Origin: Polytrichum commune
Taxonomy: Eukaryota > Streptophyta > Polytrichopsida > Polytrichales > Polytrichaceae
Assembly (NCBI GenBank): GCA_950295325.1
Contig: OX485808.1
Coordinates: 29,468,527 to 29,532,526, forward strand
DNA: 64,000 nucleotides
Direction of reading: 5' to 3'
Of this stretch, positions 655 through 38,830 are shown one piece after another (positions within the stretch are counted from its first letter, which is position 1; every line of letters starts with the position of its first letter). Below the pieces are notes generated by a model. The model saw nothing but the letters and a program-made list of their open reading frames with translations. It had not been told where the DNA came from and ran no database searches. Position numbers and translations under genes: made by a program.

Positions 655-1120
655 CACTGCTGTCCACTTGAGAATCAACTGCAAGCACTTGAATAAAAAT
701 GAAGAAAGTCTTTTCCTCAAAGGAAATGCCTTTTGTGGTGTCTCCCAAAGTTGACATGAACAGAAAACAATATCAAAGTTACAATTCTCAGATAACTTGA
801 ACCGGATGATTTTCACCCTAGTGAGTCAGGCCTATCTGCCTCCTTTCTTTCTGCCTCGCTCCTCCTCTTCCTACCTTCATACAGAGAAGATTGAATCTCT
901 AAAATGTGAGAAGATACATTCTACTGTGGCACACCATCTGGTATCCCTCTCAGCACCGGTCTCGACATTCCCAAAGGCAAAGTTGGGAGGGTTGTCTTCC
1001 AAGTCATTGACCAGGGGACGGTTGGGAACAGTGCTGTTGGCCTGCCAAGAACATGACTCAATGAAGGACTTAGCTACTACTTGATGTATCATGGGTTGCC
1101 CGAGCATGTGAAGGCCAGTA
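655..1120 (-). pseudogene. Decayed tandem copy of the SWI3D 3' end
   Basis: This segment repeats, in the same order and orientation, the last coding part and 3' flank of the SWI3D gene at about 1150-1600. Shared blocks include the CACACCATCTGGTATCCCTC stretch near the stop codon, the GACATGAACAGAAAACAATA block in the flank, and the region coding for the C-terminal MLGRPVMHQV motif, which reads MLGQPMIHQV here. The longest open frame (877-1152) keeps the order of the parent but has lost the Gly/Pro-rich pattern and most of the C-terminal sequence. It has no splice acceptor context or upstream exons, so it is a dead partial duplicate. Bases 1-650 further downstream hold nothing I recognise. Confidence 0.85.
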
Positions 1121-1414
1121 ACTAGTGTGCAATATCCACTAGGTGAGACCAAATCTCCTTGTGAGAATCAACTGCCAAGCTTTTGACTGAAAATGGAGAA
1201 GAACATTTCCTCAAAGGAAGTGCCTTTCGTGGTGTCTCCCAAGGACATATTGACATGAACAGAAAACAATATCAAAGTTACAATTCTCGGATGACTAAAC
1301 CTGAATTTCACCCTAGTGAGTGAGAGGCCTCTCTGCCTTCTTCTTTCTTTCTGTCTCCCCTCCTCCTACCTTCGTACAGCAGAGCTTCAAACTAAAAATG
1401 TGAGAAGATTAAAT

Positions 1415-4400
1415 CTACTGTGGCACACCATCTGGTATCCCTCCCGGCACCGGTCTCGACATTCCTGAAGGCAACGGTAGGGGGGATTGTCTTCCAAGCC
1501 CTTGACCAGGGGCAGTTGGGAACGGTGACATTGGCCTTCCAAGGACTTGACTTGGTGAAGGACTAGCTACTTGATGCATCACAGGTCGCCCAAGCATGCG
1601 AAGGCCAGGCATCTGCGAATGTGTTGCACCAACCATCATTTGTTGTCGTCCGGGTTGCGGCTGCTGCCCTTGCCCAAGCCCTTGAATTGGTGGTGTCAAC
1701 ATGGGTCCTGGAGCAACTGGTCTTCCAAAACCTTGTAAACCTGTTGGCAATGGAGCGGAATTGGGTGGAAGACCACTGGAGGAAGAAGCACCTAAAGGAT
1801 AGAACCCTGAATTAGGGTTGTTGGGCCCATATACGAAGTTGTTGGCACCAGGAGGCCTTTGAGCCATCTGTGCGGCAGCAGCAGCAGCGGCGGCAGCCAT
1901 CTGTTGTTGTTCTGCAGGTAAAATTGTGGTGGGTGGTGGATTGGGACTTGAGCTTGTCTCCAAGTGCGTAGTAGTAGCAGTAGCAGTAGCAGTAGTGGTG
2001 GTGGTGGTGGTGGTGGTGGTAGTAGCAGTAGCAGTAGCAACAACTGGGTGGGAATGATCGGCAAAGATTTTTTGTCGAGCACGTTCTATGGTCTCACATT
2101 CCTTTCCTATCAAGCTCTCCAATTCATTGAATATCTTCAATTTCAGCTCCAGCTTTTTCAACTGTGGCACAGGATAATCATCATGTCCACCATTAAAAAT
2201 TTATCATGACAAAGGAACTTAATCAAAGCATCATCAATATCGACACTTTGACCGTCAGCAACATATAAACGACTCAGAATGTGAGGTTCTATCTATCAAG
2301 TTACTCACGCTTTAACTTCATACCGATAGAGACTACAATTCTCTGCCCTGTCAAGGTTGCATACGCATCTCACAAATACAAGTAATGATGTGTACATGGA
2401 AGTCTGCTGTAAAAAGTCAAATCACAAATTGGAGAATAAATAAACTCACTGCTTGCTCTACCCAACAATAAACCTATCATTATATCCGTACTTATATAGA
2501 GTATACTACCTGGTTCTCAATTACAATGGTGACTAAACGTTGCATGTCACGCTCCTCCTGATCAGCCAGAAACTTAGCCTTTACTGCAGCAGCTGCCATT
2601 GCACTTGCTGCTGCCTGCTTTACATAGCCTGCACTTACACTTTCCTCTAACAAACTCAACTTCCCATCAACCTCTGCTTTTGGAACAACTTCCTTACCTG
2701 CAAAAGCCACAAACCCCACTCAATGATGAGTGCAAGCAAGAAGGGGTGTTGACACACAACTACTAAGGTAATTGTAGTTGTGGCTTGAGCCCACTTTCAA
2801 CCACAACTACACTTTTTTTCGTTTACAAACAACTACTACTTGCAGTTGAAGAATGGCTTTGACCTCAATGATCGTCCTTCCTATTGTTGCAATCTGTGGG
2901 GTGGAGAGAAACCATTTAATCATAGCGGCCTCATGATGAAAGTTTTAATTTGTATGAGCTGGTAACTACAACCACTTTATTTCAATAGTTTTTGTGGCTG
3001 AATGATTCCCTGTGATTCCCTTAATATTCTAGGGTAGCTGATGCAAACCCAAATCCCCAAAAACTAAAGTGTTTGGTGACTTTCAATCCTTCTTGTGACT
3101 ATCTTGATCCTCTCTAATACATTAAAGTTATCCTCTAACTCAACATGACTTCACTTGGGAGTTAGTTGTTTTGCGTACAACAGCTTCTGAATTCAGTAAG
3201 TTTTCAGTTTGAACGAACAACATTCTACATCAGTTTGTTGAGGGACAAACTCATTTTGGCATGCCAGGTGCTCAATAGAGTTTGGCCCTCAATGGACCGA
3301 AATAGTTTTCTCTTTGTTCAAATTCAAACACCCCTCCGAGCATGCCACACAAGTGGCTGGAAATTTTAGAAATTGTATGCAAAACAACCAATGGAAAACC
3401 ATAGGGGACCAACTCCCAACAAAAAGTCCCATTGAGTTAAGGAATAACTCTAGTGCAAAAGAAGAAAATGTGCAAAATCACAAGAGTGCTGAAGTACTCG
3501 TCATCAGATATTTGTATCATTTTCCAGTGCAGAAATCCCTCTTAAGAATTATCCCTATGAATCTACAGTCATCAATCCAGCTGGAACACAACCAATAAAA
3601 GGTTTGCAGGTTACCCAAATTGGAGTCTGGTTTAAGGAGAACAGCCTCATCCTTTGGAGCAGAAGAGTTGCTGTCTGCTGACACAGGTGGCACTGTGATG
3701 CCACCTGATGAGCATGGTTCACCACTGCCAGGTTGAGTGGCCTCACCTCCACTTGTTTGCACTTCCCCGTCTGTTTGATCTAACCTGCAAACTTCAACAT
3801 CCCAACTGGTTGGGACTTGCTAGTTGACTTCACTTTCTGGTGCTCACATTTTGGTGCCAACTGAAAGTCATGAAAGAGTAGAATAAAACAGGAGCAACAC
3901 GATTACATCCAAAAGACTAATCATTGAATGCTCTTGCTGAATGATTCAGTTGAAACTTTCAAATTGCTAAGTGCATGGCTCCCACAAATGAAGTAACCTG
4001 AATTGTGCATTTCTACCGTGAACACATAGGAAAGCCACTTCTGAACCTTTAAAAAAAGGTGCAGGCATTCCTACCAAGATGGTTCAACAGACGAAGCCCA
4101 AATCATTGTTGTGAGGGACTCTCCTTGTGATGTAAGGTAGTTTGAAGACTGCAGCAACACCTATACTAGAGGTTTTGTTGTGTATATACATGTATAAGCA
4201 AATCTTTTGATAATGAATATATTAAAAAAAGGTGTGAAGGGTCAAACAAACAAATTAATCGTTGGGTGCCAAGCCAAAAACCTGTCAGGTTGCGGTGCAC
4301 TAGGTGGAGGCATCTCAGTGGCAGGCGGCTCCTCCAGTAAAATTGCAGTGCTTGCTGCAAGGCGAAGCCCAGGGTCCTTCTTCGTTATTGCTGTTAATGC

Positions 4401-7400
4401 TTCTGCAGCAACAGCAGAAGCCACTTCTGGACCAACCATGGCCGCAAGAAACGCCACCTACAAGGAAAATTAGACAGGATGTCACAGTAACCCACTTGCC
4501 ACAGAAAGTGATATGGCTTGGCATACCCACAAGTTTACTCAGAAACTCATATAACACTACCAAAAGCTTTAAGAGATGATGGCACTGCCACTGAACATAA
4601 TACCTTTTCAGAACACAAACCACTCCAACGTTACAGAAAGTCAGATATGTGCTTCTTTCAGTCCTTCAACAGACTACTCAACATTGCAGCATTTGAAGAA
4701 CATGTTATAATAGCATGTGTAAACACATACTTGAACAACTTCTGTAGTCTTGTCATTTGAAATGACTTTGGGTGCATACTACTCATTACAAACTTCACAG
4801 GACACTCCACATCATAAGAACGAGAAAGTTGCTGAAATAAAATTCAAAAAAAACAAGAAAGTTATTGAACAGTCTCTATGTACCTGAGCCATGACAGGGT
4901 TGCCAGCATCTGCAAATGCCACAAGGCTTGGAGGCAGTGACACAACACCATTTGGAGATTCCAGACCAGTGTGGGTGCTTGGTTCATTCGCAACACTACT
5001 TTCAGGTGCTTTTTCTGTAATTTCCTCCCCCTTTTGTTCACCCTGAGGTGTACTATCTATTTGCGGAGGGGTTGTTGATATGGGGGCCGACGACGTTGAA
5101 GGACCAGGAGTCTCCAAGTCCTCTAAAAATGGGTCCTCGACAGGGAGCCGTATAAAATGCAAAATGCACTGAGATTTTGACTTAGTAGCGACATGCTCAG
5201 CTATTTCGTTCCAGTTATCTCCATAAAGCTCTAACGCCTCAAGTAGAAGAAGTGTTTCTTGGTCTGTCCAACCCCCACCATTTGCATTGGCTGCCTCTGT
5301 GACATCCATTCGCATAAAATCTGTCGATACCATGTCAGGCCCAAATTGCTCATCCTCATAGCAATTAGGGCACAAATCAAAATCGGCCTGTCATCACCAT
5401 CATACAAACTTTAGTAAATCATTGTGCAAAGGATCGAAAAACTTCTGCTTGCCTAACCCTCATTGAAAAAAAGGTTCAGCAGACACAGAAGTAACAGGAT
5501 CCTGTGAATTACAAGTCTGCTTTAATATATATAGGCCACCTGACTTGCCACCATCACAAATTCCCAGAGGGTGGTGTATAATTATATTATAGTATAGTAT
5601 ATAGTTACAAGATTGTTACACAATAGCATAGAGTGGCACATAATAGAAGACAATAGGAAACCAATGCAAATATCACAACATATATTGGTAATTTATGACA
5701 TTATTTCAACATTTTATTGTTTTTACAGGATAAATTGCTCCAGAAGTATGTGATGACCCACCTGCTTCTGGCAATGATAGCGTTGTTTACTACAATCTGC
5801 TGCACAAGAGTTACAATGATACTCCACTTCTGGACCTTCAGGAAACGCAAGCATCTCGGAAATGACAGGATCTATTATTCTTGGGGTCACCGAGTTCTGC
5901 TTGGGTACAGGAGCATTCGATGTGTTGAAATGGTATAAACTTGAACCTTTTTGCGGTAACGCCTGCAGCATGCTCGCCATATCCGCTTCAAGGACAGGAG
6001 GAGGGCCTCTCCACAATGAAACATATTCGGAGGGTGCTTGGTAGTTGATGATACCCCAGTGATCCAAAAACTCCACAATTCGACCAATCGCCTTTTCATC
6101 AGATTCACTAAGCTGCTCTTGCACATCAGCAGCAGTGATTGTCTTTCCTAGGTCCTCCCGGTATTTTTTGATAATTACATTCCTGTATTGCAGATAAAGC
6201 TCTGGCGTCTTTCCAGGCACCCTCCCATTGAAAAACTCAGGCAAACCCCTTTTCTCCAGTGTATGTATTTTCGTCCATGAGAACCAACCTGTGATAGTAG
6301 CAGCAAGAGTAAGGTAAAGGAAACAAGAAAGCCCTCCTGACCACCAGAATCAACTTCGTCTTCCAACATTTCTATGTGACATTCTAGAGTTATGCATATT
6401 ATCAGGTATTTCTGTGTCTTCAAAAAAGTATACTTGGGAGGTTTGCCATCATGCTACTTTTCTGAACTGCAAAGTTTTCAGAATAGAGGTACAAACTAAT
6501 CCTACAAATGTAAGGCTTGAAAATAAATTTATATTTCACAATGACTGCTGACACTAAGGAATGCACAACAAATGCTGAGAATTCTACCAAGGCAGTTTCA
6601 ATGCATGAAAGCAAGGTAATGTTCGATTGAGAAATTACAAACTAATCCTACATATCTAATGCTTGCCAAAATATCTCTATGCCACAATGACTGCTGACAC
6701 TAAGTTGCTACTCTCGCAGTAGATAAAAGGACAGAAACATTTGATGTCATTTGAGACAAAAAAAAATTGCAAAGACATTGACTGTCTAAACTAGGGGATG
6801 CACAACAAATGCTGAAAAATCTTCTTCTCCTTCTTCGACCAAAGCAGTTTCAATGCACAAAATGGAAGATGATGATCTCACCAGCATGACTGGGAATTGT
6901 GTGCAGTTTTTCTGCATCATCCTGTGTCCTAGGACTAGGTGTCGCCAAAGAAGATGATGCCGCCACCAATTGCTTCTGATCATCAGATTCTGGTAACTTA
7001 GCATCTGTAGGAACTCCATGTTCATCTGGAGTTGCCACAGAATTGTTACCCTGTGAAACATGTTCCTGTGAAATATTTGTTTCTAGGATCGGGGTACCCT
7101 TTTTCCCTTCCTCATCGTCTTTGTTGTCAGCCCCTACATGTACCCCTTGTTCTTCAGCTTGAAGTGGAGTTCCCTCTTGCTTGACAATGTCATCATCAAC
7201 ATCAAGGCTATCACTTCTGCTGAAGACTACTTCCACTGGCTCCCCATTCGCAGCCGAGGGTAAAGGTAAAGGGGATTCCTCTCGTGGTGGTCTTTTGCTG
7301 GGAGGCGACGATGGAGGGGACGGTCGTTTCCGTTTCAGCATATTTTCTTTAATTCCTAACCCGCCGCCGTCACCTGGGTCAGCACCTATGTCGTCCCCGC

Positions 7401-9557
7401 TCTCTTGTGGTGGACTCCCTTTCACCGGTTTCGTTCCTCCACCACTCTTCAACTTGATCTTCAAACCTAAAATTGCAACAAGAGGTGTAATTAAAGATTA
7501 AGTGGCGTCTAGAGGAAATCACAAATCCAAGTCTGCCTCTTCTTGTCCCTTTTTGTTGACCACCCAATATTGGTTGGCCACTTGGTTCATCAGCACCACC
7601 ACTAACTGCCCTAGATCTTAGTCAAATAGGATGCACCCACAAATAAAGTTTTGGGAAAAAAGTTACAATAGTCGCACACTATAATGGTAGGGAAGAACAA
7701 CAAGCAGCTGGGGAAGAATAAAAATGTTTCAGATCCCCTCCATCTATAGAGAAGTTTGAATAAATGAAATCACAGATCCTAGTCTGCCTATTCTTATTGG
7801 CCATTTTTGTTGACCACCCACTACGAGTTGGCCACCTGGTTCTTCAACACCCACTGACTGCCCTAAATCTCAGTCAAAAAGGATGCACCCACAGATTAAT
7901 GATGAGGAAATAGTGACAATAGCCACATGCACACTGTAATGCTAAAGAAAAAGAACAACAAGCAGCTTGAAATAAATGTATTCTGGGATCCCATAGTTCG
8001 TCTATAGAGAAGTTTGTTTAGAGAATGAGCACCCAGAACTGGGCCTAGTTTAGTCAATTGCAGTCTGAAGATTCAAGTTTCCCTCCCAAAATACACCAAT
8101 GCAACTACCTGCTACATTCTAGAGCACAGAAGAGTTTCTCAGGTCCTCTGTGTACGTTTTACTAACAATCCACTTGGCCCTGGCCCTTTTTTCTGGCTTG
8201 TTTTCTTTGTCCATCCCTAACCTTCCACCAACACTCTGCAGTGTAAGAAAAAATACGGATGTCCAGTGCAGGAAACTGATCCTCCCCAAATTCCAAATGA
8301 GGTGCCTGAAGTGATGATTGATCCTACTGGGTATGAAACGCCTTCATCTCCCAGAAATCTATAGACTAATGTATTGCAAACTGCTTGTTGGTTTGGTTCA
8401 TTCTTTCGAGATCATAATGCAGACTCTCTCACAAGGGTATTACCATAACTTTGAGCTCACTCTTGGAGCACATATGTGCATAGAAAAATAGAACCCCTTA
8501 AGAATTCATTCCTTTCTTCATCAGTCAGGTGGAGAAACACCTGATAATCATAAATTTATTGGGGAGTATACATCTCCCCAACTTTTCAGCTTCCTACAAG
8601 AGCTTTGGATTCCAAGATATAACGTCCAATAATATTTGTTTCCACTCCCGGAAATTTTGGTATTCCCGACCACTACAAAAACGCCTTTGATCCTCCACCT
8701 CCACCTCCACCTCCACCTCCACCACCACTCTCTACTTTGTTTTCGGTTCCATAATTCACAATAGATAAATAGATGTCCCTGGGAAGTTGTTGCAACCTAT
8801 ACATACACTCATATAGTTGGTAGTAGTAGTGGAGAGGACAACATCACCATCTCCGCTTCCATGTAAAAAATCTCTTCAATGCCTGCCCTCCCTATTTCCA
8901 CCCTTTTGTTTAATTCCACCCATTTTTGAGCTGTCGGCCCCACGGTATTGCATTTGTCCCGGATGATGAGGCAAAGCAATGATCTCCCAAGTGAAAGAGT
9001 GACTCAGTCCACTTGAAGAGCTTGTATCTGTTTTCTATAAGAATGGGAGTCCAGCACCAGGTTTGCATGACTGTTCTGATAATTTTGAAAAATCCAGCTG
9101 CATTGTCCCACATGGTGAAAATGCGAAGCTCATCCTTCCCTACCGGCTCAACAAGACCAAACAAAATTGGGGCACAAACCAAAACAACTAAGTCCATCCT
9201 CATCCAACACACACAAACCCTCACACACACACATACATACATACACAACCCTTCTTTGAGGATGCCATCAATCCCACCCAAACCTCATCATTATCGTTAC
9301 CCTAACCTCTTCCATTCCGCTCCCTAGGTTTCTCGCAATTCTCCAAACCCCACAACCTGCGAAACCTCCACACCCCAACCCCCACACAACTCACAACCCA
9401 ACCCCACGGAAATGCACAACAGAACCACCATTAACCCCAGACAGACCCCACACTACATCATCACAACAACCGCCATCAGTAGCAACAACCAAGGAGGGGG
9501 TGACTACCACTAACCGGCGGGAGCGGCAGCAGGAGCAGGCTGGCGCCGCGCAGCCAT
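1415..9557 (-). CDS. SWI3D: SWI3D-type SWI/SNF chromatin-remodelling subunit (SWIRM, ZZ, SANT)
   Basis: This is a core scaffold subunit of the nuclear SWI/SNF remodelling complex, of the plant SWI3D class (BAF155/170, Moira relatives). Exons by splice site and phase: 9557-9515 (tentative), 7466-6882, 6288-5762, 5387-4884, 4457-4282, 3784-3615, 2697-2510 and 2161-1415. Phases close to give about 979 residues, close to the usual SWI3D length. Domains: SWIRM about 209-292 (GWFSW to WGIINYQ); a ZZ zinc finger about 366-401 (YHCNSC, YHC, LCPNC) split by an intron, a feature of the SWI3D class; SANT about 424-475 (GGWTDQETLLLLEALELYG). A C-terminal Ala-rich coiled coil (about 680-765) includes LKKLELKLKIFNELESLIGK. 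The tail is Gly/Pro/Gln-rich with a Thr/Ala microsatellite. The family identity is firm. The first exon is inference. Confidence 0.95.
1960..2042. repeat. Trinucleotide microsatellite inside SWI3D last exon
   Basis: On the plus strand GTA, GCA and GTG triplets repeat for about 80 bases. In the SWI3D frame this encodes a run of about 25 alternating and then homopolymeric Thr and Ala residues in the C-terminal linker after the coiled coil. Nearby, 1870-1900 encodes a nine-Ala run. Both are length-variable low-complexity tracts outside the conserved domains, so they should be tolerated. Confidence 0.9.
3120..3455. mobile_element. Foldback MITE, family B, in a SWI3D intron
   Basis: A 336-bp element has long inverted ends. 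The left arm reads AGTTATCCTCTAACTCAA, then GGGAGTTAGTTGTTTTGCGT. The right arm reads ATGCAAAACAACCAATGG, GGGACCAACTCCC and ATTGAGTTAAGGAATAACTC. The same family is seen at 17357, 41485 and 63243. Two family ends run to CACTAGAGTTAT, which resembles CACTA-type termini. It lies in the intron between the 3615-3784 and 2510-2697 exons. Confidence 0.8.
6440..6860. repeat. Tandem duplication in a SWI3D intron
   Basis: Two diverged direct units of roughly 200-220 bp share ACAAACTAATCCTACA, CACAATGACTGCTGACACTA, ATGCACAACAAATGCTGA and GCAGTTTCAATGCA in the same order. The second unit abuts the 3' end of the exon ending at 6882, so the intron appears to have lengthened by local duplication. Confidence 0.8.
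7500..8035. repeat. Tandem duplication in SWI3D intron 1
   Basis: Two direct units of about 275 bp (7500-7775 and 7776-8035) share TTTTTGTTGACCACCCA, GGATGCACCCACA, AACAACAAGCAGCT and TCTATAGAGAAGTTTG in the same order, with moderate divergence. The rest of the intron, 8036-9514, has a short CCTCCA repeat at 8695-8725 and a CACACA/CATACA tract at about 9218-9245. I see no other gene in it. Confidence 0.85.
9515..9557 (-). other. SWI3D: Probable first coding exon of SWI3D
   Basis: The second exon opens in phase 1 directly after a TTTTAG acceptor at 7467, and its only in-frame initiator-like codon is TTG. An upstream ATG exon is therefore needed. At 9557 an ATG opens MAARRQPAPAAAPA and ends in phase 1 at a G|GTTAGT donor. 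Joining it gives a clean GGT codon and restores the frame. The choice rests on phase and donor quality only. Another small exon in the 2-kb intron could replace it. Confidence 0.5.
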
Positions 9558-10440: not shown

Positions 10441-10800
10441 CCTTTTAAAGGTAGGTGGGTCTTAAAAGGTTACTTTTTCCGACTAGCCCACTTCTCTTAG
10501 GATGCAAAACACCAAGCTCGTTAACGAATCCAAATTGAGGCCGAGGCCGCTCTCCTCATAGTTTTCGGAGCTCATATGAATATCTTATTCGATATCAAAG
10601 TGAAGATTATCATGCTCGTTAAATGGGTCATGTAGGGTTCTCCAATTATATTGATTGTTGAGTCTAGAATGATTATTATATTTTGAGCATGTAGTCCAAT
10701 CTCTTTTGAACACATATCCTTTGGGTACCCATCCTTTAAGCCACTCCTAACCATATACTACTCAATTGTAAGTGTCGGACTAAGATAAGTAATTGAATTA
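10440..10800 (-). mobile_element. Dispersed family A element, copy 1
   Basis: This is the reverse-orientation copy of a family of about 380 bp recurring at 22195, 49470, 60612 and 62560, with fragments at 11270, 46085, 57665 and 58170. Shared internal blocks (family sense) include ATGCTCAAAATATGATAACC, TCACTTTGATAATGAA, ATATTCATATGAGCTC and GAGAAGTGGGCTAGTAGGAA. No open frame is conserved, so it is non-autonomous. The better copies show weak inverted ends of the form CTAAGGnAnGnnGGCC. Confidence 0.8.
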
Positions 10801-13800
10801 GGCATGTCTAGCTCGATGTTTTGTTTTGTTGTTTGAGTTGCAACGACTTGGCCAACTTGTCATGGCGTGACAAGCAGTAGCGGTGGTGGTGATGGTGGTT
10901 CATAAGGGTTGACATGTGACTTGGGAGGGTAATGTTTGTCCATTTAAGGTATGCGCATCTCTTGTGGGCAATAGAAATGTCATAAATGATGTCCTATTTG
11001 GGTACATTGTCCATAATAGGTCCACACACCTTATGTGCATCCACTTTTCTTTTTCTTTTTTGTAGATGTTGGGTTTTTCTAATTCTAAACATTTTTAGAA
11101 TGTACAGGTGATGAGTTGAGTCCATTTTTTTATGGAATTTAAAGTAGACATGGTTATCTAATGTGGACAATTCCAACTCCACAAACATTTATTCCCATTG
11201 TATTTGAGGGTCGGAATTGTTTCGTTTAGTTAGCAATTAGAAACTACAAACACTTTCATTTCAAGGAGATGAGATGCAAAAATTTCACGAGGTCAAAGTG
11301 ATTTTTCCTTTATCCTTGAACAATTACATAGGTCTTCCCCAATATGCTCATTGTTGACTCTAAAACGATGTCTTTATTCTGAGCATATTGTCCAATGTCA
11401 TTGGAACACATGTCATTGAGGTGTCCGTTCATCACTCAAGCAATCATGCACATACCACTCGAATATAGGTGTCTTGTATTGGATGAATGTTTGGATTAAC
11501 CGTGTCTACCCTAGAAGACATGGATTTGGACACACTACAAATTGTGTAAAGGTAAATCTTGTACTCCATAATATTTGAATATATCATACATTTGTTTTTA
11601 GCAATTATTAATGTTTAATGACTCTCACAAAACATTCCATGGTGTTTTTGTTTGCTACAATTAACCACTTGAGTATTTGAGTTTAGAGTCTTGGAGTTGG
11701 AGGGCATTACAAGCATGGGTAGTGCATTATGAGCTAGTGGAATGCACACTTGGCATGTCCTCACCGTTAGAGTACGTTGCTCCATCTTTTATTTGTTGAA
11801 GAAAACTTCACATGAGGATTTAAGGAAACATAACAAGAAACTTAGGATTGTCATGTTGTTCAAGGGGATTTAGGATGGAAAATGTCATTGCAAGTTTGAA
11901 GATTTTGCCATCCAAAAATTTCAAGTGATTTCTTTTAAATAAATAAATTAAAAAAAAACAATTCGTACAAGATCGTGATGAATGAATGTCAATTAGATTA
12001 TAATGTTTTGCAATATAAGATATATGATCAAAGAATGTCATCTCAAAATCTTATCTACGTATGTAACTATATTCAAACTATATAAAACATTCACATGTGG
12101 CCTTTACCCTTTGAAGTAATCCTTGATAGTTATACAACCTCAATTGGTTATGCGATGTGCAGTGTGATGTTATAATTTTGCAAGTGTGATCAATATGAGT
12201 TGAGGAGGGTTCCAAATGTTGCGGTAGAGAACAAAGTTGCCTTTGGGCTATAGTTTTGGCTTCATTGAACAAAAAATCCAAGATCCAATAGAATTTGGAG
12301 AGGTGTGGCTTGGAACCACATGCAAAGGAGATTATTGTTTTTCACATGGAAAAAACCAATGGTGGTGAAAGCTCTATACACTAACCCTAATAGGCTCTTT
12401 TTGGGTGAATTACATCTTTGTGCAATCGGCATAAAGTCCCTAGAAACATTAGGACATGAACTTGAATTTGCCTTCAATCATGTGTATGTTGGTACCATAA
12501 AAATATGCACATAAATGTTGTTGGTACCAATATTCGATGACAAATCATGAAACACATGAGGCGCATCGGTAGTGGATTTCACCAGAGCACTAGAATAGCC
12601 TGGCACATCAATAGAAATAATGCATCCATTGCCTTGTTTAAGTGTTTCATAAGTTGTAAGCTCTTGTGCATGAACAACTACAAAGGTGATTTGTTTGCCA
12701 TCGAGGCTCAAACCTTATGCACTAGGACATCCTTGTCCACCGCGAGTGCCTCCAATCATTTAATTGATTTATGTAAAGCCCTTTCCTCATAGCCTTATCC
12801 TATACATAACTTTTATTTATCAATAAATGGTATGGAAAGAGGTGCATGTTAGATGGTTTGATAAAAACATTGATCGATTTTAATATTATTGTTTGTTTTG
12901 CTTGTTAGTTTTATGAAGTGTGAAGAGGGATGGACTAACAAGCCTAAATTGTCCCTAAATCCTAAACTCTATGATGGAGAGAGGGCCTTGGAAGAAGTCA
13001 CTCGTCCATACTCATTGGGCAGGTTGTAGGCGAGTTGCAATTAGTGGTTGGGTGGTCAATATATGACTTGATGGGCTTTGTTGTGTCCATGTGTTTGTGT
13101 ACTTGTTGATGTTGTTCAACTTGGGGAGTAATGCTAAATATATTTTTATCCTACATTGTTGTTGGCTTTTTACATGATTGATTTTGATTATGAAAGCCTA
13201 TATTTCTAAGAGCCAATTATTGAGGGTGTTGTTGAATCATCTATGACATTTTCAAATTGGATTGGTTTGCCATACGCTTGTCTAAATTGACCACAACACA
13301 CGGCATTCTTGATGCTTGGAATGTAAGGGCCTCAATTTTGGCTCTTACATTCTAGTGGTTACACATGTAGTTAAGTACCTACATGTGTTACGAATATATA
13401 CTATGTGTATTAGGGTGTATCCATGTATGTTGTAAAATATGTAAACTACACTTCAAATATACATCACAACTACCATGAAATAATAATAGCTTGATAGTTG
13501 TAGTTGAATCTAATACAAATAAGACAATAGCTTTCATGGCGTGTGGCATTGACAGAGGAATGGCATGACTAATTATACTTTGCAGTCCACCTATGAAAGC
13601 ACTAAGCCACCTCTACCCCCCATGACCATGCGGACATAGCCTAGAGGCGGTGATCGGACATTGCATGTTAGTGTAAAACACACATTGATGTTCCTTTTCA
13701 AATTTCTTTTATTTCCAATAAGACAATGTTTTGACACAAGTATGAATCCAATGGTGCGTGTTCTTCAAGAAGAGATGTTTTTGTATAGGATGCCTTCTTG

Positions 13801-18349: not shown

Positions 18350-19481
18350 TTGAGATGTACTCCAAGGATCGCCATTCCGTATCCCTATCAAGGTCCCTCC
18401 ACATACGATCTGAGGTCCCAATGCTATGAGAACCTGCAATTCGCGTCCCGATAGAGGTCCCCATTATCTGGTTCGAGGTCCCCATTATCTGGTTCGAGGT
18501 CCCCATCTCCTGGCTGAGGCAGGCGAGAGAGACAGAGAGAGAAGAGAGAGAGAGAAGAGAGAGAAGAGAGAGCGAGTTATGGCGGAATCCGCTACCATAA
18601 TCTCATCACTCTTCTCTCGAGACTCTTTTGCGCCGTCTTTAGCTCGCCTTTCAATAATCGCAATGCTCACAGACCGGTGAAGAATTGCTCATTTTTGGCC
18701 CGTTTTCTCGGGCTATGTAACCGTGATTTCTGTAAGCTTGGGTTTCAACCTTGTCGAGGTCGTTCGAGGCTGTTCTCTTATGTATTTAGCTTAACTGCTT
18801 GTGCTTGGATTGAGGATTTCGATATTCTGTTTCGAGAACACGTTTCTGTGGGTTAGGTATTTGGGGCTGGAGGTTTTTATTGGGATTTTATTTATTTATT
18901 TATTTATTTATCATTTTCAAGGGAGATTTTTTGGAGCTACATCATCGAGTGTGGGTTTGGAAACTTGGACGTGGGGAATTCGGCTCGGATTTTTACGAGT
19001 TTTCTTTTCTGCTGTTACGAGATTTCATCGGTGTGGGGGACGGGTGTCTTTACTGGGGCCATAATTTTGTATCTCCTATTTAAAAAATTGGATGAGAAGA
19101 ATGTTTGGATGCATATAGAACCATCTCGATGGTGAAGAAGGTGGGGGTAGTTTGTGTAAATTATTGATCTTGACGGTGTGCTTGTTGAGTTTATCAGTTA
19201 GTCTTGGTGGAGATTATGAGGGTTTAAGGGTTAAGGGTTTAAGCGATTGCTTAGACTCCATTCAAAAAGTTCTGAGCATTATCTGAAGAGAGTTAAATGT
19301 TTAGGTGTGTTTAAGTAGAATCATCTCGATGGTGAAGAAGGTTGGGGTAGCTTGTGTGGGTTGATCTTGACGGTTAGTGTGTTGAGTTTTTAAGTTAATC
19401 TTGGTGGAGATAGGGTTTAGGGTTTAGGGTTTAGGGTTTAAGGTTTAAGGTTTGAGGGGTTTGGTACACTCTGAATCGGGG
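18350..19481 (+). promoter_or_regulatory. Promoter and 5' leader of the MYND/PDCD2 gene
   Basis: The stretch contains a direct repeat of ATTATCTGGTTCGAGGTCCC (18466-18506), a GAGA-rich tract (18525-18577), a possible upstream open frame of 33 codons beginning at 18579, and an AT-rich TTTATTTATT tract (18887-18911). Two leader units (about 19105-19310 and 19315-19440) are tandem duplicates sharing ATCTCGATGGTGAAGAAGG and GATCTTGACGGT. TTTAGGG repeats close the leader. The transcription start was not determined. Confidence 0.55.
19412..19455 (+). promoter_or_regulatory. Telomere-like (TTTAGGG)n tract, a telo-box, before the PDCD2 start codon
   Basis: About four TTTAGGG units, followed by degenerate TTTAAGG units, lie 27 bases before the start codon. 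In plants, short telo-boxes (AAACCCTAA) upstream of or in leaders of ribosomal-protein and ribosome-assembly genes are a known regulatory feature. That fits the proposed role of the downstream gene. A second short tract lies at 21356-21374, after its decayed copy. Confidence 0.7.
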
Positions 19482-20807: not shown

Positions 20808-20824
20808 AATGCGGACGCCAAGGT

Positions 20825-21342
20825 TTTAGGGTTTGGATCTTCTTGTAGACAAGGAGGAGGATTATGTAGCTGATGTTGATGGAAACATGGGTTTGGTGAA
20901 TAATGACTTGTCACTGAGTATTAAGGCACATGCGCTCTTGGAGGATTATGAGAGACGGTGTAAAGATGGTGAGGAACTCATGGCGCGGACATGCAAGATG
21001 TGCAGGAAGCATCTGAAGAGTTTGGACAGTGAGCAGCTTTCCTAGCAAGGTTTGCAAGGGTGTCAGCACAGGTGCTAAGTTACAGTTGTTCTTTTGATGT
21101 AAACCCCTTGTGGCCGTTGCTGGAAGGGCAGCGGAAGAATGTCCACATTCCTCCATGCCTTCATTGTGGAAGCCCCGTGATGTTTGAACTGCAAATCCTG
21201 CATTAACTTCCTGCAAGTGAAGAATGAGCTGAGCTCTCTTGACTGGGTCACAAGCGCTGTATATTCATGTGAGAAGTCATGTACTGCGGGATATAGTAAG
21301 GGATATGCAGAGGAGTTTGCTTGCAATCAGTTGCAGGGTTGA
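20825..21342 (+). pseudogene. Decayed tandem copy of the PDCD2 gene C-terminal half
   Basis: This matches the parent from about 20290 to its stop. It begins with a block translating as LLVDKEEDYVADVDGNMG (parent LLVDEEDNYAADVDGTMG), continues through ALLEDYERRCKDGEEL, and ends at the GTTGCAGGGT(TGA) stop context. A frame break and deletion occur near 20975-21045, and a second deletion removes part of the LPQLLYFLQV region near 21200. It lacks the MYND finger and start. It starts only 18 bases after the parent's stop codon, so it may sit in the parent's 3' UTR. Confidence 0.93.
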
Positions 21343-22194
21343 GATGTGGAAGCTAAGGGTTTAGGGTTTAGGGCTTGAAGTTATCATTTAGGGTTTAAAC
21401 TTAGTTTAGTTTATTGTGATTAGTAAAGCTATTGAAGGATGTGATTGGAATTATGAATTCCAGCTCAGCATCTTTGCCCCTGTCCATTCCCTGGAGTCAA
21501 AGCAGACACTTCAGAGCCAAAACGTATTACTTCGATGGTGAAGTAGTGCTGGTGATATGCATACTGAATGTATCCCTAATCAGTGACGCTTGAGGTATAT
21601 CCGTCAATTTTCCATGGTCCTAGAGGGGCCAGGTGCTGGTAGTTCATCTCCACACAGTTTCTAGTGGAAGTTTTATTCTGAAGCTGGACCTAGTGGAAGT
21701 ATTCTCAGAGGCGCAGTAGTCCTAGTCAAGGCGTGAAGAGATGTGGCAAGTTGTTGTTTTTGTCTTTAGTCGGTTCACAAACTGTGTATGTTTCACTCCC
21801 CTACTTAGGAATCCTTATTGTGGTCCTCATCAAGCTGACCTTGGCCGAGTGATTGTGCAGTAAATCCTGATTGCTATTGCAAGGATACACTGAAGAACTC
21901 ACTTTGCAAATTTCTTCAATGTAAGCAACCAAGTGATACAACTTGGAGTAGTTGGAAGAGAAGTCCTCCTGTGTCTTATTGCATGAAGTGCATTCTTTTA
22001 GTGCAGTTAACTCCTTACTTAACTTTCTCTGGTAGTCATTGTGGTCTGCCTCATGTTGGTTGCTGCTTGCTTTATCAGCAATGTTTTTTGCTCTGTATTT
22101 AATAATTGCCAGATGTGATTGAGCATAATTAGTGAAAACAAATTCTGAAATCTAGCTGAAGGCATCAAAATTGTATGTGCATCAGCATAAGGTA

Positions 22195-22560
22195 GACAGC
22201 CCTTATTTGGTTACTTTCTTAATAGGACACCTAGATTTGAGTGGTATGTGGTTTGGTGTGGCTCCAAGAATCGATACCAAAAAGAAGTGTTTAAAAGGAA
22301 TTGGACTGCATGCTCAAAATATGATAACCATCCTAGGCTTGATAGCCACATAACTGGGAGGGCCTATATGACCATTTAATGAGCACATGATTTTCACTTT
22401 GATTGTGAATATGATACTCATATGAGCTCTGACATTATGAGGAAAGTGACTATGACCTCAATTTGGATTTGCTGACCATCTTTGCACTGATTGTGTGTTT
22501 CATATCTTAGGAGAAGTGGGCTAGTAGGAAAAAGTAATTATTAAAGATCTTAGCTGAAGC
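22195..22560 (+). mobile_element. Dispersed family A element, copy 2
   Basis: This forward copy contains the family blocks TTGGACTGCATGCTCAAAAT, ATGACCATTTAATGAGCACA and GAGAAGTGGGCTAGTAGGAA. Flanking sequence at 21380-22190 and 22560-23430 shows no gene. From 22790 to 23170 it is AT-rich with recurring AAGTGTCA and GTGACACTA motifs, suggestive of an old foldback element. Confidence 0.75.
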
Positions 22561-23689
22561 ATTACTTGTCTAGCTTCCTAGGTTGCTACATTGACACATT
22601 AGGTTATATGAAGTTTGATACAGTAATCAGGACAAACCAATCTTGGTATAGGAATGAGTCCTATGTGTCCTGGTGAGGAAGATGCCTCAGGCAAGAATCT
22701 TCTATCATATTTGTTATAGCTATCAAAAATCATAGTCTTGTCAAGTTGAAGGTGTCCTGTGAAACTAGACTTTCTCATCAATTATGACAATGCATGATAT
22801 TTTTATCTTTTAGTATACAAAAAGATATTATTAAGCATACTTATGGCAAGTGTCATGTGTATAAATTTTAATATGCAAAAGAAAGACATTATTGAGCTTA
22901 TTAATGCCAAGTGTTATTTGTGTACACTTTAGTCAATATGTAGACCATTGTGTAACATAGGCATACACCTCATAACACTATTGAACATACTCATGCCAAG
23001 ATATTACTATATTAGTAAGTGCACTTGAACATCAAGTGTCACAAGGTGACACTAATGAAGTTATTGATCATTAGTGTAACCTAGCATATGCCTCAAAATA
23101 GGGTAAGTGACACTATTACACATGTGACAATAAATACCATAAACAATGTAGTTTTAACAAAATCCTTCAAAATGTCACCAGAATCTCAGCATGTGCAACT
23201 CAGAATCAGATGCAGAGGAGATTGCTGTTTTTTCACATGGAAAAATCCAATGATGGTGAAGAACTATCTGCAACTAATCCTAGTAGGAGCTTTTGGGCGC
23301 CTCGCAGGAGCTCCACTTCCACATGATAGGTTCCTCCTTCCCAGTGTCCAGGGTATTTGGGGCAAAATCAGTCGAGATCCAAGTGTTACCAAAGTCCAAC
23401 TGGTTACATGTTGATATCTTTTGGTTATTCTTTGATAATTTAAGGTACATTCTATATATTCCTCTAAAATGATCGGGGATTTGCCTAAAGTCCTGAACTT
23501 GAAACGGTTTTTCTCAAACTCAACCGGCTCATCTGTAACTACAGGTCGGATCTCCCTGTTCGTAGCTCCTTCCTCATTGGACAAAATTCAACTTGATCGA
23601 CTGGATTTTCCACGCCAGGGGTGCGCAACCGCCATCCCTACTCCGACAACAGCTTGAGACAATGACCTGCTTACAAAACCTTTGTCGAA

Positions 23690-24640
23690 GAATTGAATGT
23701 GCACACTCCACTAAGGTCACAATTACTCATATGACAATTGCTTTTTTTTTTGAGAAATATGCTTCTCTTTGCACATGAAAGAAGCGGCAACAGAAAGATT
23801 CGCCCCAATTGATGAGAGTTTAATACATGATGAAGTGCTTGAGCATCTACTGGATGTGCACATCCACGAAGACCACAATTGCTCTTATGACATTTGTTTT
23901 GGGAGAATGTACTTCCCTCTACACAAGAAAGAAGTGGCAAAATCGAACGACCCCTAAATTGGTGAGAGTTTGAGGCACATGGAAGTTACTTGAGCACCTA
24001 TTGCTTCTATCTGATTGGACGGGACAAGCTTGCTTTTCTATTGTTGCGCAAACTCCTCCCTCCCAGGCCAAAATAAAAACACTCGAGATATCAAACCCCT
24101 GCTCCGAAGAATTGGACGTGCACATCCACTAAGATCACAAATGCTCCTACGACATTCTTCTTGTAAAAATGTACTCTCTGCACAAGGAAGCGGCAACAGC
24201 AAATTCGCCTGAAATGATGAGGGTTTAGGGCACAGCGAAGTACGTCTATCTGCACACCTAATCGGGTAAAATTGGACCTGGACAGGCTTGCTTTTCTATT
24301 CTTGCGCAAACCCCTCGCTCCCAGGCCAAGAACAAACGCGAGACATAACCTGTTTACATAGTCCCTGCTCCGAAGAATTGGACGTGCACATCCACTAATA
24401 TCACAATTGCTCCTATGACATTGTTTTGGGAAAAAATGTGCTTCTCTCTGCACAAGAAAGAAGTGGCAACAGCGAATTCGCCTGAATTGATGGGGTTAAA
24501 GGCACATGGAAGTACTTGAGCATGTATTGCTTCTATCTGCACACCTATTCAACTAAAAATTGGACGGGATAACCTTGCTATTCTATTCTTGCGCAAACCT
24601 CTCGCTCCCAGGCCAAGAATGACAGAAGCCATTTCTCGAG
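23690..24640. repeat. Tandem array of four 260-bp units beside the elongase gene
   Basis: Four diverged direct units begin at about 23690, 23855, 24117 and 24382. Each has, in order, GTGCACATCCACTAAGATCA, CTCCTATGACATT, CTCTGCACAAGAAAGAAG, GCAACAGCGAATTCGCCTGA, GGACGGGACAAGCTTGCTTT, TCTTGCGCAAACC and CGCTCCCAGGCCAAGAA. The minus strand keeps partly open frames (for example 24091-24453), but frame is not conserved between units, so I treat it as non-coding. It lies downstream (3') of the elongase and its decayed copies. Confidence 0.88.
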
Positions 24641-24689
24641 GCCCCGACACGTGATTCGTCAAAAATTTGCAAGCCTCAATCTAGTTTGT

Positions 24690-25178
24690 TCGACATTGAC
24701 CCTTGGAGCCAATACTAGTACCCCTACCCTTATACCCCTTCACTCCGTATTGCTTACCATGGAAGTTGAGGAAGAGAAATGCAACCCCAAAGTGGCCATG
24801 AAGCTGAGCATGAATTGCACAATCTGCATGTTGGCGACCATCTTCTTCTTCCACGGATTCCTCAATAATTGCAAGCGTCTCAATCTCGCTTGTTACACAG
24901 TGCCCATTGGAGGCCTTTACAACCACCCTTTACCCTTAGCCCCTTTCACTCCGTATTTGCTTGTTATAGAAGTTGAGGAAGAAGAACAACAAGCTGGCCT
25001 TGAAAACGAGGTTGAACCAGAATGCAACTTTTCTCATAGACATAGAAATGCAACCCCAGGGTGGCCACCCCGCACATGAAACTGAACATGAACTGGTCAA
25101 TTTGCACATTGGTGACCACCTTCTTCCAAGGATTCCTCAATATTTTGCAAGAATCTCAATCTCGCTTGTTAGGCAGCG
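24690..25178 (-). pseudogene. Two decayed tandem copies of the elongase 3' end
   Basis: Two direct copies (about 24690-24905 and 24893-25178) repeat the last 80 or so codons and the 3' flank of the elongase. They keep the segment for FLNFHGKQYGVKGYKGRG (parent FLNFHSKQYGAKGAKGRG) and the region for the KKVVTNVQIVQFMFSF segment. Deletions, stops and frame changes break both, and neither has the upstream catalytic histidine region. Together with the true gene end they make three successive units in the same orientation. Confidence 0.9.
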
Positions 25179-26025
25179 ACTCTTGAATTCCATTACTACG
25201 ACCCCTACCCTTAGCCCCTTTCGCTCCGTATTGCTTGCTATGGAAGTTGAGGAAGAGGAACAACAAACTCGCATTGAAAACGAGGTTAAACCAAAACGCG
25301 GCCATGCCGGCACACCCTGGCCCATAGTAATGCAACCCCAGGGTGGCCACCCCACACACGAAACTGAACATGAACTGCACAATCTGGACATTGGTGACCA
25401 CCTTCTTCCACGGAGGCGGCCGGTTCACACTACACAGGAAGTAGTATGTGTACATAACCACATGCACCGCCGTGTTAGCCAAAAGCCCTATGATCTGTAA
25501 GCTCTGTGCACCTTGGAGCCAGAAGAAGCACATAAGAATCACCGTGGCATGGTGAAACACATGTAGGAAGCTCAATGGCCGTTTCTTAAGGATGAGGATC
25601 ACTGTGTCCAGAAGCTCATAGAACTTGCTGAGATAATACACATATGACCAGAAGAACACAGGTCCGGTAGCTCGAGTCCCCTTCGGAAAACACAACATCC
25701 ACTCCACCCCCTTGCTTCCATTTCCCTTTCCCCTAACCTCCAACAAAGTTGCGTTTGCACATCCCACGAACATGGTCAATGACCCGAGGGCTAGCACAAC
25801 GTTGTGCAAAGAGGAAATGTGACCTAACCGCACAGGCTTCTCCTTTAACCGGAGCAGCTGTCGAAGCACAAACACGGAGAGCAAGTAGACGGCTACCGCA
25901 GAAGCCACGAAACGTTGCGAGCCGACCGAATGTGTGTGTTCCGACCATTTGAAGTTGCGGATTGCAGGATGGCCAGCGGTCCAAAAGTCGAGAAGTGATC
26001 TAAGATCGCCCAAACGGAGCTCCAT
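25156..26025 (-). CDS. ELO-type very-long-chain fatty acid elongase
   Basis: This intronless gene of 289 residues starts at an ATG at 26025. ELO (GNS1/SUR4) proteins are ER-membrane condensing enzymes that join malonyl-CoA to a fatty acyl-CoA in very-long-chain fatty acid synthesis. All hallmark motifs are present: KFYELLDTVILILKK, the HVFHHATV histidine box, HVVMYTYYF and TNVQIVQF. About six to seven hydrophobic segments surround them. The C-terminus is Lys/Arg-rich (KQYGAKGAKGRGR, ending NKRD). Length agrees with plant ELO-like proteins, which are also usually intronless. Substrate chain length cannot be read from the sequence. The last third has been copied twice downstream. Confidence 0.95.
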   Translation of the reverse strand: MELRLGDLRSLLDFWTAGHPAIRNFKWSEHTHSVGSQRFVASAVAVYLLSVFVLRQLLRLKEKPVRLGHISSLHNVVLALGSLTMFVGCANATLLEVRGKGNGSKGVEWMLCFPKGTRATGPVFFWSYVYYLSKFYELLDTVILILKKRPLSFLHVFHHATVILMCFFWLQGAQSLQIIGLLANTAVHVVMYTYYFLCSVNRPPPWKKVVTNVQIVQFMFSFVCGVATLGLHYYGPGCAGMAAFWFNLVFNASLLFLFLNFHSKQYGAKGAKGRGRSNGIQESLPNKRD

Positions 26026-26164: not shown

Positions 26165-26243
<79 letters not shown>

Positions 26244-32117: not shown

Positions 32118-32276
32118 TAACATTATTGAGATTCATAACAATGTTATGTGGGACTGACAATATTCTACAGAAAACCGAGGGGGAATATTTCCGGATATTT
32201 TGTGCATTCCACATCCATATTCTTTGGAATATTGTCAGTCCCACATGACACTGTTATGGATCTCAACACTGTTATG
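32118..32276. mobile_element. Foldback MITE, family G, copy 1
   Basis: The left arm has CATAACATTATTGAGATTCA and TGTTATGTGGGACTGACAAT. The right arm has ATTGTCAGTCCCACATGACA and GTTATGGATCTCAACACTGT. The arms are nearly the whole element, so the transcript would form a long hairpin. The same structure recurs at 33338-33486. Confidence 0.8.
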
Positions 32277-33337
32277 GAATCTCCATGTTGATAGTCTATC
32301 GATGTATGAGCCACCCTACTTTTCAAACCCACACCTAACCCACAATAGACTGCGGTGTTTTCTACTTGCACAACTCTCCACCCCCACATACACGATGCAA
32401 ACGGTGCAGACCTTAGACAACTGCCAAAATAACTATATTTAACTACACTAAATAGGATATTTAGTGTTTATTACACTAAATACAAACGCATATACTAAAT
32501 ATCAATAACCCTATGAAAGTAAGTAACATTAAATGTAAACTCAAACATTAAATATCAACTATGGTAATATGTGGAAGTTACATGTTTGAATTTAGTGTTA
32601 GTAAGGATATGAATTTTTTTAACATTGATAAAAGGAGAATTCCAACATATCTTCTAGCGTTATCTTCTAACACTAATTGTTAAAAAATTGAAAATTAGTG
32701 TTTAGCATGGTAGGGTGGTAATAACATTAAATATAATCAAACTAAATATCCTATCTAGTGTAGATTTTTTCAATACATTTTTGGGAACAACTATACTTAA
32801 CTAGAAAAAATTAAGACCATATTCAAGAACAACTATGGTTAATTATTGTCAAAATCACCTCTTGATTTGCTTATGTTTAATATGCTCGGGTCACTAAGGA
32901 TCATCAAGAAATGCCTTTACATGATCACTCACAATGTTGTGCTCCGAAACAACCTCCATGTACATCACCAACACAAATAACACACTAGTGACACAACAAT
33001 ACTACAACGGAATTCCGTGAACAAGTTGCGCTCAATTGTAGTTAACTAGATATAACTATACTTAACTAGATTTTACGGCAGGTCAAATCCCGAACAACTA
33101 TAGTTATGGAAGGCAACTAGTTAACTAATAATTGAATGAGTTGGTTAGTTGTCCAAGGTCTGAAACGGTGTAGTAATGGCGACTCTTTTTTCACCCATCG
33201 CGAATTCTATATTCGAATGGTGTGTGGTGAGGTGAGGCTCCATGAACGGTCACTGGAAGGACACGTGTTGAAAAGAGATTGGAGGACGTGCTCGGGTTGT
33301 GATGACCGTGCTAGCCTCGACAATTGAACATGAGGGG

Positions 33338-33486
33338 CATAACATTATTTAGATCCGTAACAATGTTCTGTGGGACTGACAATATTTCACAAAATATTCC
33401 CCAGACTTAGACTGAGTGTGGGGAATATTCAGTGGAATACTATCAGTCCCACAAAACACTATTATGAATCTAAATAATGTTATGAG
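33338..33486. mobile_element. Foldback MITE, family G, copy 2
   Basis: The arms run from CATAACATTATTTAGATCCG and GTGGGACTGACAATATTTCA to ACTATCAGTCCCACAAAACA and GAATCTAAATAATGTTATG. The two arms pair over about 55 bases around a loop containing the short palindromic GGGGAATATT. The outermost 16 bases are perfectly inverted, so this copy is better preserved than the one at 32118. Confidence 0.85.
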
Positions 33487-36287: not shown

Positions 36288-37029
36288 TTAATGGGGGAGA
36301 ACAATATTTGGTGTACTTAATCGCGTGTTCCGGATTCTAGGAGAAGTGGGATGGCAGGAGGAAGCAAGCATTTAGGAGGCCTCTACATTAGAGATCCTAT
36401 GATGAACTTAGACGTGAATTTGTTTAAACATTCATCGTAATTACAATTCTATTTTTAACAAGATACTTGATATTTTGGTTGAAATTATGACTACTATAGA
36501 GCTGGTGGAAGTTGCAAGCATAATATGATCTTGATGTGATGAAATTGTCAAATCTTCTCGAGATGTGAACACCTCATGAAGTATAATGGGTAATTATGCG
36601 TCATTTAACGATCAACATTTTGGAGGTAATAGACGATTTCAGTAGCCACTTAGTGGGGAAAGAATGGCTAAGAAAATACATATTTCTAAGCAAGATCCAA
36701 GTGACATTTATGTTTTGGGCAAAAATATTCTCATTGACTTTTAAAGATTGCATTATATGACAAGGACTTTCACACTATGAGCTTTAATTGCTTTTGCAAT
36801 GCATGCCCACCTATTGGTTAGTCAATCAAGCATCCTCACTTTTTTGACACTTGGTTGAACTAGGATTTTACACTTGGCTTAAAACAACAACCACCATTTG
36901 GAAGCAATCATGGCACATGAGACACAATGGGAACTCCATATCATCCCAACACCATCAAAAATCACCTTTGATGCTCTCAAGCATGCCTTTCTAACTTAAG
37001 AATGAAACTCTTTCCATCTTGACAGACAA

Positions 37030-37760
37030 AATTGCCCACCTCTTGCAGCAAGAATTGGCATTAATTGGTAGGGGATTTTATTCTGTGCACTTTGATTGCT
37101 TCTGCAATGCTGCAGCTGTAAAGAAAATGTAATTCCTTCCTAAGTATATCTTCCACAAATGCAATTGTCACTGTATTAAAGGGAATATATGCACTTTGAA
37201 TGCACTTGCACTCTAATAAATGTTGAAACTTGTTCCAACATTCACTTCTCGTCTGCTCTGCTGCTAAACTATGGTGGGTTCAATGCAACCATAATTTTCA
37301 CTCTTGATCATATTTTAAAACAATGAACTGATTAACAATGGCAGTTTGGTGGACACACATAATTGCTCAATTGGCAAGGGGTTTTCATTCTATGAACTTT
37401 GATTGCTACTTTGATGACTTTTCATTCTTTAGTAAAAGAAAATGCAACAATTCCCACCTAATGATTTCTTTCTTCAAATATGCAATATTCTCAGAGATAT
37501 ATACTGTAACTGTATAAAGGCAAGTTAATACGGTTCGAGTGAAGGTTATGGTACTCCTTGCACTAATAAATGTTGAATCTTGTTCGAATCTCGTCTTCCC
37601 TGCCACTAAACTATGGTGAGTTAAATGCAACCTTGTGGCATTCATCAACACCTGAAAAAGAGACTGTATCAACCTTGCGCCTGATCTGATGTGTTTGTCA
37701 CACAATCATGACTTCCCACAAATTTTCCTCTTGATCAGATTTGTGAAGCAATAAACTGAG
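37030..37760. repeat. Two tandem units downstream of the permease gene
   Basis: Two direct units of about 350-380 bp share ATTGGCA-GGGG-TTT, ACTTTGATTGCT, GCACT-TAATAAATGTTGAA, CTTGTTC-AA, CTCGTCT-CC and ACTAAACTATGGTG in order. They precede the 325-bp array at 37830-38830. Region 36300-37030 shows no gene. Confidence 0.75.
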
Positions 37761-37829
37761 AGGATGTGTTGCTCACCCAAGTCTTGCAGTATGATGAATT
37801 GGGTCCTTCATCAACCTTCCCTGCTTCAA

Positions 37830-38830
37830 CACCTGATTTCGTCTGCCCTCCGCATTCTCCACCCTCTAATCCTCATCTTGCATTGTAAGGTGAATGTAAT
37901 TTGGTGGGTTGACAGTAAGACCAGCCCATGCAGCACATTTCAATGTCCTTTTGTAGCCTTCAAAGATCAATGTCTTTTTTTCGGTTCCAGGGTTCCAGAA
38001 TTCTCTCCGTTAACAGTAGATTTGCTCGACCACTTGAACAATATCACATTCTCATCCTTCACGAAAAATCAAAACCCCATTTCACATCTGCTTCCACAGT
38101 AATAAGATTAAACAGTGGCTGTTGTTTACATGATGTTTCAGAGGTTGATCAAGAGCATATACAGAAGGATGTAGATTACAGGTCTCTCACTTCAGAGGGC
38201 GAAATATTTGGGGTTTAAGAGGTGTGTTACTCTACATGGTGCTCCAATTGTTTAGCCCAAGCTAATCTCAATATCCTTTGCCACCTTTAAGGATCACTGT
38301 CTGAATCTTTCCTCATGACCCCAGAGTTCGCTCAGGTAACTGCAGGTTTGCGGGACAACTTGAAGAGAACTACATGCTTATCCTTCAAGAGGACTTGAAA
38401 CTCCATCCATCCAGGTTCACATGTGCTTCCACAGTGGTGACATTCCACAATTGTCGTCTAAATGATAATTCAGGAGTTGATCAATAGTGTATACAGAAGG
38501 ATGTAGAAACTTCGGAGGGGCAAAATTTTTTAGGCTTGCTCCAGTTTCATGGAGAGGTTCAGTCGTCTAAACTTCATCATCTTGGGCTGGGAGGCTTCAG
38601 ACCAAGGAGAAGAGGGCGACAGGGAGCAACAGTATTAACAAGAGTTCTCTCAGTCAACAGCAGATTGGCCAACCGCATGAAGAGATTTGTATGCTTATCC
38701 TCTAGGAGAAAAAGAAACCCCATCCATCCAGGTTCACATGTACTTCCGTAGTGGTGAGATTCAGCAGCTGCTGCTGCTGTTGTTTACAAGATATCTCTGA
38801 AGATGATCAATAGCTTTTACAGAAGGATGT
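37830..38830 (-). pseudogene. Three decayed tandem copies of the permease 3' end
   Basis: Units of about 325 bp (about 37830-38220, 38221-38520 and 38521-38830) repeat the permease gene end and 3' flank in direct orientation. The unit nearest the gene keeps, at 38571-38640, a segment reading GLKPPSPR then stop, matching the true C-terminus GLKPPSPRG. Flank blocks ACAGAAGGATGTAGATTACA, TCCATCCAGGTTCACATGT and CTCTCAGTCAACAGCAGATT recur in each unit. They have no start or membrane domain, so they are non-functional. Confidence 0.85.

Follow-up and report, generated by a model that had tools for sequence, protein, structure and literature searches.

Why should four unrelated genes within 64 kb of one moss genome each be followed by decayed copies of their own 3′ ends? 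The question is raised by a stretch of nuclear DNA of Polytrichum commune (C6:29468527-29532526, 64 kb; hereafter, the window), in which an earlier note had reported such copies at the genes for SWI3D, PDCD2/TSR4, an ELO elongase, and a Trp/Tyr permease. Self-comparison of the window bore this out: all four tail copies are present near the positions reported, each directly oriented and on the downstream side of its parent. In each gene, the duplication is a direct tandem one, the duplicated unit spans the stop codon, and the spare copy lies downstream. These tail copies are likely to be ordinary local tandem duplications in gene-rich DNA that were then filtered by selection. Most of the tail pattern can be accounted for by selection, which we infer, on the products of a general duplication process; a mechanism specific to 3′ ends is unneeded and, in our small sample, unsupported. 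The general process is probably a known one, with the tail pattern as one of its outcomes. The parent units and their copies are as follows.

1162-1608, minus strand: SWI3D parent unit, consisting of the final 194 coding bp and 253 bp of 3′ flank (stop codon at 1415-1417)
669-1118, minus strand: decayed SWI3D tail copy, downstream (82% identity over 459 columns, E 2e-117)
20290-20833, plus strand: PDCD2/TSR4 parent unit, consisting of the final 518 coding bp and ~26 bp more (stop codon at 20805-20807)
20834-21369, plus strand: decayed PDCD2 tail copy, abutting the parent (81% identity, E 6e-149)
25131-25414, minus strand: ELO elongase parent unit, consisting of the final 259 coding bp and 25 bp more (stop codon at 25156-25158)
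24648-24851 and 24852-25130, minus strand: two decayed ELO tail copies (79% identity, E 7e-85)
38641-38977, minus strand: Trp/Tyr permease parent unit, consisting of only the final 70 coding bp and 267 bp of 3′ flank (stop codon at 38908-38910)
37923-38645 (38323-38645 and 37923-38217), minus strand: decayed copies of the permease tail and 3′ flank (69-74% identity, three pairs)

The copies abut in PDCD2, ELO, and the permease gene, and Tandem Repeats Finder (TRF) gave the ELO array a period of 282 bp and 2.2 copies. The PDCD2 copy shows neutral-like decay next to a conserved gene. Every reading frame in it is broken, and its comparison with the parent codons gave 96 identical codons, 25 synonymous and 44 nonsynonymous differences, and seven codons with gaps; at the 44 differing sites, 12 chosen homologs agree with the parent at 30 and with the copy at nine, with five ties. 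Chance similarity was ruled out because Markov-1 controls yielded no cluster in 234 kb. A minisatellite origin was rejected for the four tails, which consist of two to three copies of ~280-544 bp units, not of many short ones; short periods do occur in 15 of the 33 clusters found outside the window (described below).

The window belongs to an assembly of 407.8 Mb in 64 contigs, of which seven large ones (42-78 Mb) together hold 406 Mb; a set of seven chromosomes would be in keeping with the Polytrichaceae. Besides the four genes above, ALAD/HemB was named in it, and a further gene lies at ~61.6-64 kb, the ends of which were excluded from the counts. Exon borders and start codons, here and elsewhere, are readings from open frames and splice signals, made without transcripts. 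SWI3D carries a SWIRM-assoc_1 domain in its last exon, with SWIRM and Myb domains upstream, and the PDCD2/TSR4 protein is 98% identical to its best match, followed by those of Sphagnum (63%) and Physcomitrium (61%). Just upstream of the PDCD2 ATG is a telomere-like TAGGGTT repeat of 6.7 copies (19411-19458), and TTTAGGGTTT ends both PDCD2 units too. A pure CT repeat of 75 bp (26166-26240) precedes the inferred ELO start by ~140 bp.

The tails are not the only duplicated segments in the window. At a threshold of E ≤1e-8, a length of at least 60, and a shift of 40-2000 bp, we detected 20 clusters. Three were dropped as dispersed repeats (10638-11417, 45954-47758, and 60610-62902) and a fourth (32217-33484) as a pair of 60-base pieces 1.2 kb apart with inverted matches as well. 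The 16 clusters kept comprise four that span a stop codon, six in introns, two in 5′ flanks, and four in other flanking or intergenic DNA; the stop codon is thus untouched by 12 of the 16. These 12 further clusters, which the earlier note had missed, are listed below; in one of them, an internal exon end is duplicated.

55553-55799, minus strand: ALAD parent unit, consisting of ~30 bp from the end of an internal exon, the splice donor, and intron
55323-55551, minus strand: intronic copy of this exon end and its donor, 1 bp from the parent
52330-52687, minus strand: young tandem duplication in an ALAD intron, beside an exon (2 x 179 bp, 99.4% identical)
56641-56954, minus strand: tandem array in ALAD intron 1 (period 86)
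40047-40612, minus strand: tandem array in a permease intron
7515-8016, minus strand: tandem duplication in a SWI3D intron (placement inferred from open reading frames)
6490-6704, minus strand: short duplication in a SWI3D intron (placement likewise inferred)
19116-19433, plus strand: tandem duplication in the 5′ flank or untranslated region of PDCD2, ending 48 bp before the inferred ATG
42850-43222, minus strand: tandem duplication located ~180 bp before the inferred permease ATG, in the 5′ flank
23656-24619, strand not assigned: second array beyond the ELO tail copies (period ~260-290 bp)
37205-37632, strand not assigned: short duplication, 1.3 kb beyond the stop of the permease gene
44208-45550, strand not assigned: large intergenic tandem array
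49098-50381, minus strand: tandem array that begins 249 bp beyond the ALAD stop, holds no coding sequence, and includes a dispersed repeat

The ALAD pair at 55323-55551 and 55553-55799 therefore documents the copying of an internal gene part within the window itself. Across all 16 clusters, best-pair shifts range from 86 to 726 bp, within the class of 10-1000 bp units; the best-pair copies abut, overlap, or lie no more than 10 bp apart in nine clusters and are separated by 43-488 bp in the other seven. The sites hit are stops, introns, exon-intron borders, 5′ flanks, and intergenic DNA, without a constant sequence or place in the gene; by our own exon models, all 16 clusters lie at least partly outside coding sequence. 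When 15 of the clusters (all but that at 6490) were compared with 323 kb of the genome, 11 had no match outside their own array; of the remaining four, two matched only nearby extra units (40676 and 43298), one had a 32-base match, and one contained a dispersed repeat with 19 matches. A dispersed repeat family of ~350 bp occurs in both orientations at 10463-10802, 22188-22537, 49475-49827, 60610-60960, and 62565-62902, and its copy at 49475-49827 sits within the array downstream of ALAD. The arrays at 23656-24619 and 24648-25414 adjoin and have near-equal periods (~260-290 and ~280 bp), with no BLAST match between them.

Duplications of this kind also occur elsewhere in the genome. In 25 random 10-kb stretches (250 kb, L001-L025), we found 33 clusters, 24 in L001-L017 and nine in L018-L025: 15 have periods below 120 bp, two have shifts above 1 kb, and 16 fall in the size class of the gene tails (120-1000 bp). 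The random stretches gave four genes with a readable stop, namely a methyltransferase (L002), an auxin-responsive protein (L003), a CH-domain gene (L009), which we take to be EB1-type, and a 570-codon frame (L020); gene pieces in L001, L005, and L018 have no placeable stop and are not in the tally. More gene ends came from family searches, in which 92 of 376 and 12 of 90 candidates were scored. They comprise five of the 14 listed aldehyde dehydrogenase matches (profile position at least 459; L026-L030) and the top one of 98 P450 matches (L031), and they were scanned at E 1e-3 or 1e-2, the rest at 1e-8. One of these 10 outside genes, the aldehyde dehydrogenase at L027, carries a stop-spanning duplication with the anatomy of the window tails: its pieces (74-449 and 539-911 in gene direction) are 82% identical, the stop is at 422, and the copy is broken. 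The P450 gene has an array 327 bp past its stop, without coding sequence. The other eight have no duplication across or past the stop in the DNA examined (0.45 kb for L020 and ~1.0-1.2 kb for most), except for a weak 35-base pair at L028; at L009, where 7.8 kb past the stop was examined, the nearest pair lies 3.5 kb beyond it and has a spacing like that of long terminal repeats. The methyltransferase gene has one cluster that ends 84 bp before its ATG and another in an intron. At L009 (1856-2078), the acceptor of the last exon and the first ~25 bp of that exon are copied, with the copy upstream of the parent. The random stretches also hold a 2086-codon open frame (L024, 416-9951) that is flanked on both sides by a 63-bp-period array of the same statistics; we guess that the frame is retroelement-like.

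We then counted how often duplications touch gene landmarks. Stop codons are covered in five of 15 genes (four of five in the window and one of 10 outside), and start codons in none of the eight genes counted (PDCD2, ELO, permease, ALAD, L002, L003, L009, and L020). In seven of 15 genes, a duplication crosses the stop or lies in the first 1 kb after it; in three of eight, one lies within 1 kb upstream of the start. These counts divide the earlier claims about bias. That 5′ and internal gene parts are spared holds for the starts and fails for internal parts, given the ALAD exon end with its donor and the acceptor with exon start at L009. That selection removes 5′ copies fits the uncovered starts and the lack of wholly coding clusters in the window. 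The note had also said that a 3′ bias would fall if internal parts were copied equally often or if most genes had no copy at all; this is what we found, although only in a small sample.

Taken together, these results are consistent with the following sequence of events. Local tandem duplications of ~90-700 bp would fall at many sites in gene-rich moss DNA. Staggered nicks or breaks, with the overhangs filled in and end-joined, or else replication slippage, may produce each head-to-tail copy, and some arrays would then expand to three or more copies. Where the edges of a unit lie in the last exon and beyond the stop, the first copy would hold the whole gene, and the second would be a free downstream tail with its 3′ flank, spare and left to decay neutrally; the orientation, position, and decay of the tail copies would thus follow from the geometry of the duplication. 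Units that cross a donor or an acceptor would survive because the spare piece falls in the intron. In contrast, start-crossing units would be removed because they put a truncated frame upstream of the gene, and units within coding sequence because they break it.

Several observations weigh against this account. The window is unusual in its stop coverage: four of five stops are covered against one of 10 outside (one-sided 0.017, by hand), and uniform placement yields four of five at a frequency of only 0.0026-0.0052 by cluster span and of at most 0.0001 by unit length, also with placement in coding sequence barred. The null was run in four versions, with the ALAD array at 49098 set by hand to a unit of 330 bp (its best-pair shift is 726), and the frequencies are too strong because the window was chosen, post hoc, for its tail pattern. 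The window is also dense in duplications, with 15 kept clusters of 120-1000 bp in 64 kb vs 16 in 250 kb of random stretches, and clusters with shifts of up to 1 kb span 18% of the window vs 7.4% of L001-L017. In addition, 12 window duplications (from 669 to 55799) fit one divergence (pooled 0.170, P 0.37), as expected of no steady random process. Selection against start-spanning units is something that we infer, and the junction of the lone young duplication, at 52330-52687, has 0 bp of microhomology (the sole young event examined), which speaks neither for nor against any one repair path.

These points lend something to two other explanations. One is that gene 3′ ends are true hotspots, where a stalled polymerase, R-loops, or a conflict between replication and transcription breaks the DNA near termination and duplication ensues. 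The excess of covered stops in the window over uniform placement, the contrast of five of 15 stops with none of eight starts (one-sided 0.09, by hand), and the arrays 250-330 bp past the stops of ALAD and the P450 gene all point this way. However, copies are not confined to 3′ ends, nor present at most genes in our small sample: six window clusters lie in introns, as do two in genes of the random stretches, three of eight genes have 5′-flank clusters, a donor and an acceptor have been copied with parts of their internal exons, and nine of 10 outside stops have no spanning copy. We therefore consider such hotspots unlikely, and the link to termination, R-loops, or cleavage sites that the earlier note had raised finds no support here. 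The other explanation is a regional episode, in which one event or a short spell of faulty replication or repair made most of the window duplications and hit several tails. It draws on the richness of the window and on the ages: the 12 dated pairs are 12-21% diverged at gap-free sites, the noncoding sites of 11 of them are homogeneous too (P 0.24), and 16 duplications elsewhere are heterogeneous (P 4e-12), so that the shared age suggests an older regional episode. Young duplications are also scarce, with K<0.15 in seven of 29, but the deficit hinges on the assumed detection limit (P 0.006-0.095). Moreover, the grouping is post hoc; the divergence set leaves out the 99.4% identical pair at 52330, whose inclusion would make the set heterogeneous, together with the period-86 array at 56641 and the duplications at 6490 and 37205 (<90 sites), and both homogeneity and density may reflect old DNA, free of transposable elements, around genes. 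We judge an episode of this kind to have little probability. That tandem duplication truly initiates at gene 3′ ends in this moss and that this 64-kb region also had a single episode of tail and intron duplication is, as a joint proposition, quite unlikely.

An origin as retroposed or transposon-captured gene fragments was rejected and is very improbable. The copies do hold coding tails, but they are not dispersed, A-tailed, or stripped of 3′ flank as processed retrocopies are: they adjoin the parent in direct orientation, they carry 3′ flank, no A-tract was seen at the array edges inspected, and the four tail arrays matched nothing but themselves in 323 kb. In contrast, the traits of repair-type duplication are found in the window, with head-to-tail, near-abutting copies, units of 10-1000 bp, and no fixed position.

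Tandem duplication in gene-rich DNA, the origin that we favor, has parallels in other systems. Vaughn and Bennetzen are said to have described natural tandem duplications in plant genomes in 2014, and Schiml et al. reportedly traced tandem duplications to adjacent single-strand breaks in 2016. According to an excerpt of the source (PMC7407515), insertions of 10-1000 bp in rice can take the form of tandem duplications; as excerpted, these are direct, of the same size range, and attributed to break repair, whereas the moss pairs are mostly old (12-21% diverged) and dense around the window genes. Tandem duplications from adjacent single-strand breaks are cited in the available part of PMC7464560, and a passage of PMC8355091 describes fill-in by CST/Pol alpha-primase at complementary 3′ overhangs, which gives small duplications in mouse and human cells. 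As far as these passages go, the nick and fill-in systems resemble the moss in that the stretch between staggered nicks is duplicated head-to-tail; the Pol alpha system differs in that its small duplications arise in mouse and human cells, and junction chemistry is unreadable in the old moss copies. The 408 bp promoter duplication at VvmybA1 of grape, as outlined in part of PMC7464560, is similar in unit size and in later growth in copies, but it is a promoter allele with a color phenotype. A literature search found no account of 3′-biased gene-tail copies, which is not proof of their absence.

The findings indicate that a striking gene-tail pattern is possible without a tail-specific mechanism, given tandem duplication and the stop codon as a tolerant border. 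Tail copies affect annotation, as they can appear as false downstream genes or odd 3′ untranslated regions, and they supply a large number of datable pairs. Should the window duplications prove to be of one age, regional bursts of tandem duplication would become testable in plants.

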